DNA from: a virus
DNA length: 29,319 nt
IMG/VR virus record: IMGVR_UViG_3300037485_001205
Location: 1 to 29,319 of that record
Direction: 5' to 3' (one strand)
The notes below the pieces were generated by a model, which saw only the letters and a program-made list of their open reading frames with translations, did not search any database and had not been told where the DNA came from. Both the position numbers and the translations under genes were made by a program. Below, piece by piece: positions 13,393 to 25,604 of the stretch. Within the stretch, counting starts at the first letter, position 1, and the number at the start of each line of letters is the position of its first letter.

Positions 13393-14055
13393 ATGGATTT
13401 GTTTAATTCGTTAGAAAATTTATTACCACAATATGAAACAGTATTACCATTTTCAAAAGAAAAGGTATCGTTTACTCCATTCAGAGTCAAAGACGCTAAA
13501 AATATTTCTATTATTTTACAAGAAGATAATAAAAAATTAGCATTAACTTCTTTAGTAGATTTGCTTACTACAAATATTAAAGGAACCAATATACTAAATT
13601 TATGTATTGGTGATGCTGAATTTTTGTTTTTGCAAATTAGGTCTAAAAGCGTTGATGAGAGACTAAATTTAATTTACAATAAAGAAAAAATACAAGTTTT
13701 TATTTCGGATATAAAAACAAGAAATAATATTATTAGTGAAACTATACAATTAACGGATGGCGTTAATATTACATTAGAAACTCCAACTATACAAGATTTA
13801 CTTAAATTAAATACATTAGAAAAAGATGAATTGATTAAAGCATCTATTAAAAAAATAGCTGTGGGGGGAGAAATTTATTATGTAAATAAATTTGTAACAG
13901 AAAAATTACAAAAATTAATAGATAATCTTCCAATGACTATACTTCCAAAATTGGACGAATTTCTATTAAAACAACCTGAACTATTTGTTACCTTACAAAC
14001 ACAAGAAGGTGATAAGGAGGTCAGTGGATTTTTAAGTTTTTTTACTTGTCGGTAA
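13393..14055 (+). CDS. 26: Baseplate hub assembly protein (T4 gp26 family), zero-frame product
   Basis: The product is 220 aa. The N-terminal half has VSFTPFRVKDAKNISIILQ and, at residues about 75-95, IGDAEFLFLQIRSKSVDERLNL. This is the signature of the T4-type baseplate assembly chaperone family ('..r.f.vkE.k.l....e......l..l...c......d...l...d.e.lfl.iR.kSvge'). These proteins help fold or load the hub and tape measure. The gene starts 3 nt after the preceding stop. Its 3' end carries a T TTT TTT slippery run followed by a stem-loop, and the next gene is in the -1 frame and overlapping, so a 285-residue fusion may also be made. Confidence 0.85.
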   Translation: MDLFNSLENLLPQYETVLPFSKEKVSFTPFRVKDAKNISIILQEDNKKLALTSLVDLLTTNIKGTNILNLCIGDAEFLFLQIRSKSVDERLNLIYNKEKIQVFISDIKTRNNIISETIQLTDGVNITLETPTIQDLLKLNTLEKDELIKASIKKIAVGGEIYYVNKFVTEKLQKLIDNLPMTILPKLDEFLLKQPELFVTLQTQEGDKEVSGFLSFFTCR

Positions 14056-14096
14056 AGTTTTTTGATCTTAAAGATTATTTTACTACAAACTTTACC
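14014..14096 (+). promoter_or_regulatory. Probable -1 programmed ribosomal frameshift signal at the gp26/gp51 junction
   Basis: Three elements are visible. A Shine-Dalgarno-like AAGGAGG lies at 14014-14020, inside the gp26 reading frame. A heptamer T TTT TTT lies at 14037-14043, correctly phased for a -1 tandem slip. A 7-nt spacer follows. Then comes a perfect 10-bp inverted repeat, GGTAAAGTTT at 14051-14060 pairing with AAACTTTACC at 14087-14096. The zero-frame stop at 14053 lies inside the stem. The -1 frame is open from 14016 to 14249. The shift would join residue 217 of the gp26-like protein to 68 residues of the gp51-like frame. Confidence 0.65.
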
Positions 14097-14249
14097 TTAA
14101 TAAATAACTTTAATTGGAATTTAACTGATCTTGATAATATGATATGGTGGGAAAGAGAAATTTATATTAAACTATTAATAGATTATCAAGATCAAAAGAA
14201 ACAAGAACAGATGAATAATAGATTTGATATGGGAGGTATGAACCTATGA
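14046..14249 (+). CDS. 51: gp51-like baseplate hub assembly protein, probably made as a frameshift extension of gp26
   Basis: The short frame (67 codons from a TTG at 14046) reads FFDLKDYFTTNFTLINNFNWNLTDLDNMIWWEREIYIKLLIDYQDQKKQ. It matches the small helical protein that follows gp26 in T4-like phages ('..f...y.L......s...i..MPwwEREiy...l......E'). It is equivalent in position to the P2 E' and lambda T extensions. There is no ATG and no Shine-Dalgarno at a proper distance from the TTG; an ATT at 14028 is 7 nt after AAGGAGG but is a very rare start. The -1 frameshift is the simpler explanation. It ends with an ATGA overlap to the next gene. Confidence 0.6.
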   Translation: MSVKFFDLKDYFTTNFTLINNFNWNLTDLDNMIWWEREIYIKLLIDYQDQKKQEQMNNRFDMGGMNL

Positions 14250-14665
14250 CAGATGATACAAATGGATTTTCAATTGATGTTGGAGCAGAGCAACAAGCCT
14301 TTTCTGCTGCACTGACACCATCTAGTATAGAATTACCAGCACTAGTATCTTCAGTTGCCAATCAACCACTACCAGAATCTATACTTTATCAACCAACTAA
14401 TGTAAATATCTCATCACAAACAAAAGCAGAAGTTTCTGGAGTTGCTTTAGATTTAAGAATTAAATTTGATGCAGAGGATAGTTACAATCAACTCAAGGAT
14501 GTGGTTGATGAAGTTCAACAATCTGTATCAGGGTCTAATGAAAACAGATGGATTCCAGATCCAAAAACATCTGATCAATTTGAAGAACGCCCATCCCTTG
14601 AACCAACTAATTTAATTTTTGATAACAGAAGAGAACGGTTTTCTGAACATCCTAAGTGGGCATAA
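14246..14665 (+). CDS. Small acidic protein of unknown function in the tail-assembly operon
   Basis: The product is 139 aa. The start codon overlaps the previous stop (ATGA) and is preceded by GGGAGG at good spacing. The sequence is hydrophilic and acidic with a Pro/Ser-rich N-terminal half, a helical segment DAEDSYNQLKDVVDEVQQSV (about 73-92) and a C-terminal NRRERFSEHPKWA. I do not recognise a family. In lambda and P2 the tape measure gene follows the frameshifted chaperone; this protein is far too short to be one, so the tape measure must be encoded elsewhere. It is the last gene before a strong terminator. Confidence 0.55.
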   Translation: MTDDTNGFSIDVGAEQQAFSAALTPSSIELPALVSSVANQPLPESILYQPTNVNISSQTKAEVSGVALDLRIKFDAEDSYNQLKDVVDEVQQSVSGSNENRWIPDPKTSDQFEERPSLEPTNLIFDNRRERFSEHPKWA

Positions 14666-19493: not shown

Positions 19494-22400
19494 TCATTCA
19501 CCCGGACAACACGCTACCAAACCACATTGAACTGGACTTGTATAAAAATTAGGACCAGTCCCTGAACATAAATATAGTAACTCATTATTTAAACCATTTG
19601 TTGGTTCACTACTACCAACAAAACAAATAGCACCATAACTTGAACTAGATATTCCACATATATTTTTAATATAATTTTTAGATTCCCAACATAAAGGTAT
19701 CCATTTCTGAGACGTTCCATGAAGCCACGGTTCTGTGGTTTCTGTATAGGCACTATTTCCAAGGACATCGATAAATGAATATTTTATAAAATTAGGATCG
19801 GTTGATGGGGGCATAGTTAAACCAATATAACTACAAGTACCCTTTAACAATTGTTCTGGTGGTAGATATGTTTTTATATAAGGAATATAATAATATGGAG
19901 CCCACATGGTATTAATATTGTCACCTGTATTATCACCGGTACCTTCACATTGGCTTCTCCAAGCAAACGAAGCATATCCACCAAAATATCTAATTGCATC
20001 TGCAATGTTTCGAGCATTACCGCCACAACTATAACAACTATTCTTAGGAATTAATATACTACAAAAAGCAGCTTGAAGATTTTCAAGAATTTCTGGATCG
20101 TTAGGAAAATTTACTGGTAAATTTTGATATTGTTCTAAAGGATAGTTTGGTCCAGTCATTGGATAATTAAACAAACTATAATATCCACACAATCCAGCTT
20201 GTGTTCCACCATTGGGTCCAGTGCCGCCACCAAAACCAACACCGGGATTTGCATCAATAAAGGTTACTCCTGGTGGTCCACCACTTAGACCAAGAGAATT
20301 TGTAGTATTTACATGTAAAAAATCTGGATTTAGATATATATCATACGTATCCAATTCTCTATCATATCCAAAATAATAATGTCTTTCGGAATATCTAAAA
20401 TAAGGATTATATGTCTGAACATGTTTTGCACATGGTGCGGTATCACTAGTAAAATTAGCTGACCCGTATCTATCTATTCTCATTTGAAATATATCTTTAG
20501 TAGATTTAAATGATACAGTTGGGCCTATATCAAATGCTCGGGAGATACTTCGAGCATCACTTGGTAAAACTCCTTTAGTAAAAGTATTTTCTTCACCCGT
20601 ACATGGATCTGCTCTTTCACATGGTGGTTGGATTGGTCTTTGTCTATTGTAAAGCATTTGTTCACCCATAGGTCTGGCTTCACCCCATACAGATTGTGTT
20701 GATTGTCCACACCAACCATACAATCCAGACGCACTATTATCACCATCATTATCAACAATCATACCACCATCTACTTGATCGCAGGCTTCTCCAATAGAAT
20801 CATTACCAATTGTGCCAGGTGTTTGTGGTTTAAATGACGAATCAAAGGCTTGTTTTGTTAACCTTCTCCAATCAGATCGCATCCAGAAATATTGTGGATA
20901 TCCACTATATGATAAATGAATATTAAATTCTAATGCACCAGCAGAGTTACCAGTATAAATGTTGTAGGCTAAAGCGGAACATGGATCTGGTTGAATAACT
21001 GGATGATCATTTTCAACTATTTGCCCGCAACACAAATCACCATATAACCATTTTGAAAAATCCCATGATCCAGGAATGGCTTCAAAAAATGCATCACGTT
21101 TAAAATATTGTGGTATCGATGACCAATTTTTATATTGATATTTTTCTGTACCGGGAGCAAATGATTGATAGTCCCATGTTTTGGCTTCTTTTCCGGTAGA
21201 ATATATTGCAATAGCATGTGCATATCCTGCTGAAATATCAATTATTTCTTTATTTTGCAGATCTATAGGAACACTGGTTCCAAAATCTTGTTTTCCATAT
21301 CGAGTATAGCTATACACTCGACTTGAAGTAAAATCAGTACCAGCAATTTTTATTCTATAAGAAATATAAAAAGCATTTACTCCTGCACTAATTTTATCAA
21401 TATCAATTAAACTTATATCAAAATCAGAAAGACGGATCTCTGTACTTGATACTGTTCCGGGAACATATGTACTAGGATTATAGCTACCGGGAACCATACT
21501 AGCGTCACCCCAAACATAAACTCTATTATTACCTACAACACACATGCTATAATCACAAGAACTATCAATATCAGTTATTAAACTGTTTTCTCCGGGTGGG
21601 AAGTATTCTGCACGTAATATTGGTGAATGTGTAACACCATCACATGTAAATCCACACCCATACGTTACATCCCAAGTGCCCTTTAATGCTTTTAACGCTT
21701 CAGGAATAAAACAGGTTATTCCTTGTAATACATTAGTCTCTTCTCCACTACCAGTATCAACAGTTACCAATGGTCCGTTTGGTGTTCCTTGATCATCTAT
21801 TTGATAATATCTTCCATAAATTTCTAATAGATTTTCATTAGTTACTAATAATGTATTATAATGACCTGCAGCAACATTTGTATATCTTGGTTGATAATCA
21901 CCAATTGTTCCGATTGGAACATCAGAATTATAAATTAATGTTCCTAACAAATTACACGTAATATCATAAATTGCTGGATCTGGCTCAGAACATGTTGCTC
22001 CTGTAGTAATTATCTTATCAAGACATCTATTCCCTTGTACAAAACCAACTCCTCCACCACCGCCACCACCAGGACCTTCACTATTATTTCGACAACTTTC
22101 TGCTGGAGTTCCATACAAACAAGCACACAAATATCGTAGATATTCATTATATACTGAGTTCGGGCTAGTTAAGGAAATATATAATTCCTTTGTCCATTCT
22201 TCTTCTTTAATATATCCTGGTCTAGGAATATGATTAAAATAGAAAAACCCACTATCATCATTATCAGTTATCTTAGAGCCACTTCGTCCGAATCCTCTAT
22301 ATTTGTAGAAGGCTGATTCTTCATAAGTAATTGGAAAGCCCTTATCACATTGGTGATCAGTATTATCACTTAAAGGAGATGCAAATACTCCACCAAAATC

Positions 22401-25400
22401 ATCTAATGCAACAAAGTGTTTTAATCCAGCAGCAATTTTTGTCCATATAAACCAAGTATTGGTTCCAGGATATCTTAAATTATTTGGGTTTATAGCAGGA
22501 TCATAACCACCTAATACACCACCAGCACTATCTTGTTGAGATAAAGAAAAAGTGGCTAATCTGGCATTACTTCCCCATGATTTAATTCTATATGCATCGG
22601 GATGTCGACTTTCACCTGCAAGTGCTCTTAAACCATAATTTACGGTACCCTGCGGACCAGGAACAATATAAAATGGATCATTGGGGACACACTGTGGTCC
22701 AAAAGGCTCAAAAATCTTAGAATTAGCACCATTGCAATTAGTAGCATAATAATCGGCAGCAACACCTTCATCATTATCAAATGCAGAATTATTAATACTA
22801 CCAACTTCTTGAGAATAACATAAAAAGCTTAAACCACCATTTTCAAAATTGAGTAATGCGGAAGCAAAATCATCACCTTTCATAACAAGATCTATTATAG
22901 TTCCATCTGTTATTTGTTCTTGTGGTCTTAGTCTAACTCCACTTGGATTATCGTCATCTCTTTCTAATATAGAAAGTATTGATAGATAAAATGGTGTACA
23001 TGTTATGCTGGATGGATATTGAAATGTTCCGTCATCGGCACACACAGTATCACCACCACTAGGAATTCCTCCAAAAATAAGTAATTTGCCACTTACATCG
23101 GTTACAAAAGTTCCACCTAAACCCGATGTAACTCGAATTGGTCTAAGATTAGACCATGTATTATCTGGATCAGTTACATTCAAAATAGAAGGTATACTGA
23201 TTGCATCACTTGTATATGGAGCACATTCAATATAATCATATGTGTTTCCGGGTTGAGAATCTGCAGTACAACCCCATCCAGTTATTCCAGTCAATACTGC
23301 TGCCAGCGGCAGGGTAGCTTTTCTAGGTAAAAAGCATCTCATCTGTTCTTTGTCACCAGATGGTCCAGTAAAACCAAAAAGACCTTCTGTATTTAATAAT
23401 TTGTTTTTTATTATTTTTGGAGTTGTTGCATTTTGTGTTCCAGCACAAACTCCAAAAAAGTTTATTAAATCAATATACCCACTCAAACCACCAGTAAGAA
23501 GTCCAATCGTATCTGGAATTAAAATTTCTTGCTGACCTTGATCATTTGTTTGATAAATTCCTGTTTGAATAACTTTATTAACATCACTTGATATATCTAT
23601 TGCATGATCTTTTATTCTTGTAATACCATTTTCAATCATACGTTGTAACCAAAAATTTACATAATCATATGAATTTAATAAATGGTTAAAATTCCATTCT
23701 ACTGGACCGGGTGCTTCACCTGGTTCGGTACACTTACCAGAAGAAAAATGTCGCATTCCAAAGAAATATCGATTATAATGTTCTAAAAATAAAACACCAT
23801 CAAATAATCCACCAGGACCTTGAATATTATTTGAGATCGATAGGGTTTCCATAGACACAAGATCAAAATGGAATAATGGAATACCAGAACCCTTATACAT
23901 TACTCTTCTTGGAATACCCCGTTTAACTTGCCATAAAATAGAATCATAATTCCACGGTGTCCACAAAACTTTATTTGAACCACTTTGTACAAATCTACCA
24001 GCATACCCTCTTTCAAATGGTATATTTTGCATTCTACAATGATTTTGTAATGGTGGTAGTGAAACAGATTTACTACCATCTAAAGATTGAAATGCATAAC
24101 ATTCAAAGTGATGTTCTAATTGAATAAAACCAATATACTGTTCTTTTAATGATGTTTTAATTCCAGATATTTTTTTAAATCTTACATTAATATCTTTTCT
24201 TGCCTGATCTATTTGTACGCCAAGACCCCTATAGGTTGGACCAAAGTCATGTTTGTATCCAGAATTTCTTCCATGTCTCCATATACTATATGCCATTTTA
24301 TAATCATCTTGTGATATTCTTAAAAGATATGGTGATATACCCCATTCATAACATCGTTTTTTATATCCTGGATTTCTGGCAAGACTACTATCAACTTGTC
24401 CCGGTTGGAAGTGGCAATTTATACCAGGACCACAAGGATCTATACCTATATCTTTTCCTTTTTGATCAAAATATGGATATGTAGCACGATAACATGATGC
24501 TCTTGCTTTTGAATAAGCATCATAATCTTGACTACTTTGTGCAGCACTTCCACACCAACAACATCCGGCTTCTTGACTTGTTAACATCGGGGCAGAAAAA
24601 GCAGGCATATGTGATACATAACCTATTTGGTTTTCTGTTAATCGTACATTTACTCTATTAAAAACAGAATCTCTTACACCACCATGTATATGTGGAAATG
24701 GAACGCATGCACAAGGAAAGATAGGGTTTGTTTGTCTGGTCGGATAAAATCCTAGATAACATTGAAACATACTATTATTTTCAGCAGCACCGGCATATTC
24801 TTTTTGAAATGCCCATTGTTGACATGAATTTTGAGCAGTTTCATATCCTTGCTGATTACCATTTTCATCCAATGCTCTACGATATCCCAAAAACCCATTA
24901 CATTGATTTACATATACATCAAAATCAAATGAATATTCTCTTGGATGCCATGTTAAATAACAACCTGAATATTTGTATGCAAACACAATAGGTTCTGCAT
25001 CATTCATCCAAGATTCATAAAAATCACCTGTACAACATGCACGAGCACAATATGTATGTGGGTCTGTGCTAAGATCTCTATTTCCACTATTCCATGCACC
25101 TTGATCTGATCCACATGGTGGTGCATCTGGATTAACACCACCATTAGCAGATCTTTGATTTGGAATTTGATTTGTAAACGTTTTTTCTATTGAAGAAGTT
25201 TTATCTGTACTTGCTAATTTATTTGATAATCCACTCTGATATGCATTATTTGACTTAGACCCAAAAAAATTATTTTTAAGTGTATTTCGTAAAGAAAATC
25301 CAGTATTATTTTTTATATTAACTAATTTAAAATTATTTGATGAGTCATTATTATTGTTTAGATTAGCTTGTTCGGGTGGACATCCACAACAACAATTACA

Positions 25401-25604
25401 ACCAGGATCACTATCATTATTAAAAAATCTTCTTGATGAAACTCTTGGTGTTCCCGGACGGGGAGTATATAAAGCAATCCAATCCTCTGGACTAACTTCG
25501 GCAGTTTCTGCCATAGAAGTTCCATATAATGTTATAAAATCGCTGTAAAAAGTTGGATTACAACAAACTGTAGTAGGATTACAACAACAAGCATTTTTAG
25601 GCAT
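19494..25604 (-). CDS. Giant cysteine-rich virion-like protein with RCC1-like repeats
   Basis: The product is 2036 aa, the largest in the window. It contains about 70 cysteines, many paired (ACCC and VCC at residues 6-15, NCCCGC near 70, ACC, GCCWC, LCC, and a C-terminal ACCPGE). It is rich in Tyr, Trp, Gly, Pro and Asn. Between residues about 1055 and 1470 there are RCC1-like blade motifs: KIAAGLKHFVALDDFGGVFA, NVAAGHYNTLLVTNENLLEIYG, CDYSMCVVGNNRVYVWGDA and DISAGYAHAIAIYSTGK, which suggests a beta-propeller. A seven-Gly run lies near residue 1180. There is no signal peptide or transmembrane segment. The size, composition, late promoter and isolation as a single cistron suggest a fiber, whisker or receptor-binding protein, but the role is unproven. 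Confidence 0.8.
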   Translation of the reverse strand: MPKNACCCNPTTVCCNPTFYSDFITLYGTSMAETAEVSPEDWIALYTPRPGTPRVSSRRFFNNDSDPGCNCCCGCPPEQANLNNNNDSSNNFKLVNIKNNTGFSLRNTLKNNFFGSKSNNAYQSGLSNKLASTDKTSSIEKTFTNQIPNQRSANGGVNPDAPPCGSDQGAWNSGNRDLSTDPHTYCARACCTGDFYESWMNDAEPIVFAYKYSGCYLTWHPREYSFDFDVYVNQCNGFLGYRRALDENGNQQGYETAQNSCQQWAFQKEYAGAAENNSMFQCYLGFYPTRQTNPIFPCACVPFPHIHGGVRDSVFNRVNVRLTENQIGYVSHMPAFSAPMLTSQEAGCCWCGSAAQSSQDYDAYSKARASCYRATYPYFDQKGKDIGIDPCGPGINCHFQPGQVDSSLARNPGYKKRCYEWGISPYLLRISQDDYKMAYSIWRHGRNSGYKHDFGPTYRGLGVQIDQARKDINVRFKKISGIKTSLKEQYIGFIQLEHHFECYAFQSLDGSKSVSLPPLQNHCRMQNIPFERGYAGRFVQSGSNKVLWTPWNYDSILWQVKRGIPRRVMYKGSGIPLFHFDLVSMETLSISNNIQGPGGLFDGVLFLEHYNRYFFGMRHFSSGKCTEPGEAPGPVEWNFNHLLNSYDYVNFWLQRMIENGITRIKDHAIDISSDVNKVIQTGIYQTNDQGQQEILIPDTIGLLTGGLSGYIDLINFFGVCAGTQNATTPKIIKNKLLNTEGLFGFTGPSGDKEQMRCFLPRKATLPLAAVLTGITGWGCTADSQPGNTYDYIECAPYTSDAISIPSILNVTDPDNTWSNLRPIRVTSGLGGTFVTDVSGKLLIFGGIPSGGDTVCADDGTFQYPSSITCTPFYLSILSILERDDDNPSGVRLRPQEQITDGTIIDLVMKGDDFASALLNFENGGLSFLCYSQEVGSINNSAFDNDEGVAADYYATNCNGANSKIFEPFGPQCVPNDPFYIVPGPQGTVNYGLRALAGESRHPDAYRIKSWGSNARLATFSLSQQDSAGGVLGGYDPAINPNNLRYPGTNTWFIWTKIAAGLKHFVALDDFGGVFASPLSDNTDHQCDKGFPITYEESAFYKYRGFGRSGSKITDNDDSGFFYFNHIPRPGYIKEEEWTKELYISLTSPNSVYNEYLRYLCACLYGTPAESCRNNSEGPGGGGGGGVGFVQGNRCLDKIITTGATCSEPDPAIYDITCNLLGTLIYNSDVPIGTIGDYQPRYTNVAAGHYNTLLVTNENLLEIYGRYYQIDDQGTPNGPLVTVDTGSGEETNVLQGITCFIPEALKALKGTWDVTYGCGFTCDGVTHSPILRAEYFPPGENSLITDIDSSCDYSMCVVGNNRVYVWGDASMVPGSYNPSTYVPGTVSSTEIRLSDFDISLIDIDKISAGVNAFYISYRIKIAGTDFTSSRVYSYTRYGKQDFGTSVPIDLQNKEIIDISAGYAHAIAIYSTGKEAKTWDYQSFAPGTEKYQYKNWSSIPQYFKRDAFFEAIPGSWDFSKWLYGDLCCGQIVENDHPVIQPDPCSALAYNIYTGNSAGALEFNIHLSYSGYPQYFWMRSDWRRLTKQAFDSSFKPQTPGTIGNDSIGEACDQVDGGMIVDNDGDNSASGLYGWCGQSTQSVWGEARPMGEQMLYNRQRPIQPPCERADPCTGEENTFTKGVLPSDARSISRAFDIGPTVSFKSTKDIFQMRIDRYGSANFTSDTAPCAKHVQTYNPYFRYSERHYYFGYDRELDTYDIYLNPDFLHVNTTNSLGLSGGPPGVTFIDANPGVGFGGGTGPNGGTQAGLCGYYSLFNYPMTGPNYPLEQYQNLPVNFPNDPEILENLQAAFCSILIPKNSCYSCGGNARNIADAIRYFGGYASFAWRSQCEGTGDNTGDNINTMWAPYYYIPYIKTYLPPEQLLKGTCSYIGLTMPPSTDPNFIKYSFIDVLGNSAYTETTEPWLHGTSQKWIPLCWESKNYIKNICGISSSSYGAICFVGSSEPTNGLNNELLYLCSGTGPNFYTSPVQCGLVACCPGE

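Follow-up and report, generated by a model that had tools for sequence, protein, structure and literature searches.

A T4-like myophage very probably uses the gp26-like locus analysed here to make two forms of its tail assembly chaperone from one gene, the longer one through a −1 slip of the ribosome at T TTT TTT. From their sequences, the two products are best read as the short and long tail assembly chaperones, TAC-N and TAC-NC. The window, that is, the whole stretch of DNA under analysis, is a 29,319-base virus record (IMG/VR IMGVR_UViG_3300037485_001205), and all coordinates refer to it.

Table 1. Features of the frameshift locus and their positions in the window
Feature	Position	Strand	Remarks
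gp26-like ORF	13393..14055	+	220 aa 0-frame product, TAC-N equivalent; PF12322, phrog_150
AAGGAGG, internal Shine-Dalgarno (SD)-like element	14014..14020	+	16 nt before the heptamer
Slippery heptamer T TTT TTT	14037..14043	+	X XXY YYZ phase; TTTTTTT or TTTTTTC in 181/181 junctions
Spacer ACTTGTC, 7 nt	14044..14050	+	same spacing throughout the gapless alignment A3
Stem 5ʹ arm GGTAAAGTTT	14051..14060	+	includes the 0-frame stop codon (14053-14055)
Stem 3ʹ arm AAACTTTACC	14087..14096	+	pairs with 14051-14060
−1 frame C-terminal extension, predicted TAC-C equivalent, 68 aa	14043..14249	+	phrog_634; 'gp51' in cyanophage annotation
Predicted fusion, peptide across the junction			...SGFLSFFYLSVK...

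In the proposed mechanism, most ribosomes would stop at the end of the gp26-like ORF and yield the short form of 220 aa, while a fraction would slip back one base at 14037-14043, enter the −1 frame and yield a long form of 285 aa that carries an extra domain of 68 residues. The downstream stem and the upstream AAGGAGG would probably stimulate this slip. By analogy with lambda G/GT, the short and long forms together may cover the tape measure protein, keep it soluble and pass it on for tube assembly. The occurrence and rate of slipping, the stimulation by stem and AAGGAGG, and the role as a chaperone are inferred from the DNA sequence and its comparison with relatives.

Slippery heptamer at the gp26-gp51 junction

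The first-pass annotation of this DNA had proposed a −1 programmed frameshift with a slippery run in the right phase, and the 0-frame codons at the slip (AGT TTT TTT ACT TGT CGG TAA) confirmed this phase base for base. After a −1 slip, the codons would read TTT TTT TAC TTG TCG GTA AAG. The 7-nt spacer, the perfect 10-bp stem and the upstream AAGGAGG that it had described are all present (Table 1), and translation across the slip gave the fusion of 285 aa (217 + 68) that it had predicted. The −1 frame stays open over 14016-14249.

When the fusion was used as the query against IMG/VR, 72 relatives were returned, and the heptamer and the −1 overlap were retained in 72/72. Further relatives, collected with the C-terminal domain, P-SSM2 gp26 and phiM12 gp26, brought the set to 181 distinct junctions, which come from IMG/VR and isolates and cover the window clade, P-SSM2-like cyanophages, HTVC008M, Melnitz-1, phiM12 and pf16. 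All of them (181/181) have T TTT TTT or T TTT TTC in phase, and the gp51-like ORF at −1. For the 180 junctions that were scored automatically, the last in-phase slippery heptamer was in every case (180/180) one of these two, and the heptamer is also present in the remaining junction (L055). At other in-phase codon positions of the same genes, such a heptamer occurred at only 11 of 37,927, and chance is thus excluded as the source of its presence at the junctions. The codon preceding Phe-Phe specifies seven amino acids (Ser, Asn, Thr, Ala, Asp, Arg and His) by eight codons and always ends in T, compared with T-ending shares of 11-79% for those codons elsewhere in the window clade.

The first-pass annotation had counted relatives that lack the slippery run but keep a normal ATG for gp51 as evidence against its proposal, and no relative without the heptamer was found. 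A −1 programmed frameshift that joins the gp26-like and gp51-like frames was supported at every point that sequence can test.

Residues and start codons past the slip

In the 57 aligned window-clade junctions, the first two shifted residues were Tyr (57/57) and Leu (57/57), the latter being specified by five codons, and Tyr-Leu was also invariant at this place in a set of 27 sequences. The 0-frame residues on the same bases varied among Cys, Tyr, Phe, Ser, Trp and Leu in the 57 junctions. Judged from this pattern, the −1 frame is under purifying selection directly past the slip.

It had also been claimed that the downstream frame is open and has neither an ATG nor a properly spaced ribosome site. 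The frame is open and has no usable start, but a TTG and an ATT do exist in it. The TTG (14046) is badly spaced from the SD-like element, the ATT lies 7 nt past AAGGAGG, and neither codon is conserved among relatives. The first −1 frame ATG of the window is well within the C-terminal domain. For the window clade, no ATG, GTG or TTG was found before the 18th shifted codon in 38/64 junctions, nor upstream of the slip in 64/64 members.

These codons bear on the alternative that the gp51-like domain is a separate small protein, made through termination-reinitiation or internal initiation with the aid of AAGGAGG as a Shine-Dalgarno sequence, which we consider very unlikely. The strong conservation of AAGGAGG would fit such a protein, but the codon 7 nt past it varies over 14 different codons, one of which is a stop. 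Candidate starts do occur in relatives: a −1 frame ATG overlaps the 0-frame stop (ATGA) in six window-clade loci (L058, L062, L065, L068, L069 and L072), an ATG at shifted codon 3 is invariant in the P-SSM2 clade (59/59), and public records annotate a separate gp51 from such ATGs. However, the heptamer is retained even where an ATG exists, and the Tyr-Leu ahead of any start is invariant. The window has an ATG of neither type, and it and most of its clade have no start codon near the junction, apart from the badly spaced TTG in the window. Synthesis of gp51 from its own start was ruled out for this window by the lack of a conserved start codon. Given the conserved shifted residues together with the missing starts, no mechanism other than a slip at the heptamer was seen to fit all of these observations. 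In the ATGA loci and the P-SSM2 clade, reinitiation could add a free C-terminal domain.

Stem and Shine-Dalgarno-like element

The stem region had an MFE of −11.7 kcal/mol, lower than those of 200/200 shuffles (z −3.2), and the stem was paired in 96% of cells across the 57 window-clade sequences. Two-sided changes were seen in 4/10 stem pairs, and the covariation exceeded that of all 500 shuffles and of all slid controls, with few independent events behind it because the sequences are related. Two variable pairs fall on codon third positions, where GTA AAG with AAC TTT is replaced by GTG AAA with AAT TTC. The P-SSM2 clade has its own 10-bp stem, which is well preserved and without covariation support. 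Going by these patterns, the 10-bp stem after the 7-nt spacer probably stimulates the slip.

Conservation of the cassette across relatives, which the first-pass annotation had put forward as a check, held throughout for the heptamer, in part of the window clade for the absence of starts (38/64, as above), and in the window clade outside the L057-L071 group for the stem. Most of the six ATGA loci, L057 and L071 have lost the stem, with the heptamer retained. As the stem has decayed and an ATG lies over the stop in the L058 subclade, frameshifting may not be the sole route there. The six ATGA loci possibly represent a lineage shifting from frameshifting towards reinitiation.

Upstream of the slip, 62/64 distinct window-clade junctions have a GAGG whose end lies exactly 16 nt from the heptamer. 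The Glu codon at this site is GAG in 56/57, compared with 127/991 (13%) elsewhere in the same genes. In the P-SSM2 clade, GAGG ends 10 nt before the heptamer in 56/59 junctions, and the Glu codon there is GAG in 56/59 compared with 22% elsewhere. A third group of relatives has GAGG 10 nt before the heptamer in 32/57. Judged by this codon choice, the SD-like element is under strong nucleotide selection, and the upstream AAGGAGG probably stimulates the slip.

In E. coli dnaX, a heptamer, a downstream stem and an upstream internal Shine-Dalgarno sequence act together, the last at a spacing of about 10 nt. The 10-nt spacing in the P-SSM2 clade matches the dnaX arrangement, whereas the SD-like element of the window lies farther upstream, at 16 nt; the genes are unrelated. 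It is conceivable, though on balance rather doubtful, that this three-part cassette with its moved SD-like element (16 nt here, 10 nt in P-SSM2-like phages) contains an unusual stimulator, possibly acting through a type of pausing other than that in dnaX. No description of the strongly selected GAGG was found in the literature, in which Vladimirov et al. 2022 was represented by the papers that cite it. The moved element offers a natural, testable comparison of spacing effects on −1 frameshifting.

The same elements bear on the idea that the fusion arises from transcriptional slippage at the T run instead of ribosomal frameshifting, an explanation that is slightly less likely still than a separately initiated gp51. 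RNA polymerase could slip on seven consecutive T, but outside the window clade the usual form among relatives is six T and then C (59/59 and 46/57), and a run of six T is too short for typical transcriptional slippage. In addition, the codon phase of the heptamer is strictly retained, and both the stem and the SD-like element, which are conserved, represent kinds of signal that act on ribosomes. The loss of one T from the homopolymer of a continuous gp26-51 gene by sequencing or assembly error has a negligible chance of being correct: homopolymers are error-prone and one extra T would join the frames, but the −1 arrangement is shared by 181 distinct junctions, which come from many samples and from finished isolate genomes and some of which have only six T and then C, and this explanation is rejected on that survey.

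T4 gp26 and gp51 and known frameshift systems

The short product matched PF12322 (T4_baseplate, E 7.6e-23) and phrog_150 (baseplate hub, E 8.5e-24), and the −1 extension matched phrog_634 (baseplate hub assembly catalyst, E 1.3e-15). In T4, gp26 (208 aa) matches PF12322 over its whole length, and gp51 (249 aa) matches PF12322 over residues 1-201 (E 4e-52) and phrog_634 over residues 147-246 (E 1.2e-23). A direct profile alignment of the window extension with T4 gp51 211-244 was weak (probability 18, E 0.0013). Comparing A1 with T4 gp51 as single-sequence profiles yielded no information, and better evidence comes from the matches to Pfam and PHROG. By these matches, T4 gp51 is a gp26-like domain followed by the C-terminal domain, that is, a long-form paralogue of gp26. 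With this domain make-up, T4 gp51 would be the counterpart of the predicted frameshift product, and T4 gp26 that of the unshifted one. T4 gp26 also weakly matches the gp28 family phrog_1140 (E 9e-4), which hints that T4 gp28 may share the fold family.

The first-pass annotation had noted that gp26 and gp51 are separate genes in T4. There are indeed two genes, but gp51 is not merely the partner of gp26, as it holds both a PF12322 and a phrog_634 domain. Genes 26 and 51 of T4 (L077:3803-5229) are divergent, on opposite strands. Gene 26 ends in GLKEFFELL at the equivalent place, where TTC TTT encodes Phe-Phe; it lacks a slippery run and an open −1 frame. T4 thus has the two forms from two separate paralogous genes, whereas the phage of the window would make both from one gene via frameshifting. 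In the annotations of P-SSM2 (L074), HTVC008M (L075) and Melnitz-1 (L080), gp51 is a separate gene with a later start, and that of P-RSM1 (L076) lists no gp51 gene. The long form is misannotated or missed in the public genomes examined.

PMC3004832 lists T4 gp26 and gp51 among the hub assembly chaperones, gp51 being required for assembly and absent from the virion. The AlphaFold model of the short form was confident (pLDDT 89) and matched gp26/gp51-family models in a viral library, one of which is named a tape measure chaperone. No solved structure was matched significantly in a fold search, the HK97 tail assembly chaperone 2OB9 appearing at probability 0.30-0.38 and E 0.77-0.92, and the model hints weakly that the short form may resemble this chaperone. 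In both HTVC008M and phiM12, an annotated tape measure gene is found one gene downstream of the pair. No tape measure gene was recognised beside the locus in the window, where the frameshift gene is followed by an ORF of 139 aa and then by a gp32-like gene on the opposite strand. The 139-aa ORF (14246-14665, +) had no assigned family and is kept in relatives, with 47% identity in L040.

Frameshifting in the TAC-N/TAC-NC genes of T4-like phages was described by Vladimirov, Gautam & Davidson (2022, Virology 566:9-15), as cited in PMC10885494 and PMC12846349. Through these citations, the TAC-N genes of T4-like phages are known to contain poly-T slippery sequences (PMC12846349), and some T4-like phages have, in place of frameshifting, one TAC gene for the short form and another for the long form (the PRFect paper, PMC10885494). 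As characterised by the citing papers, these systems belong to the same family as the window locus and share with it a poly-T site at the end of TAC-N and a −1 extension. No direct report of cyanophage baseplate frameshifts was found in the literature; the precedent surfaced through the PRFect paper. The frameshift device here is therefore not new, as it had been reported for T4-like phages in 2022. The abstract of that report is said to name T4 26 and 51 and to state that frameshifting is kept in several T4-like groups. The tail chaperones lambda G/GT and P2 E/E', which use −1 shifts near a tape measure gene, belong to differently named protein families, the fold similarity to the HK97 chaperone being only suggestive. 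On the comparisons above, the window locus is a real and well-supported case of the published T4-like TAC frameshifting. The large-scale comparison confirms that one phage gene family has two routes to the same pair of proteins: T4 has duplicated genes, and its cyanophage-like relatives use frameshifting.

Elsewhere in the window, an ORF of 2036 aa (19494-25604, −) had no PHROG match and showed a weak match to RCC1-like repeats at about residues 1343-1472.
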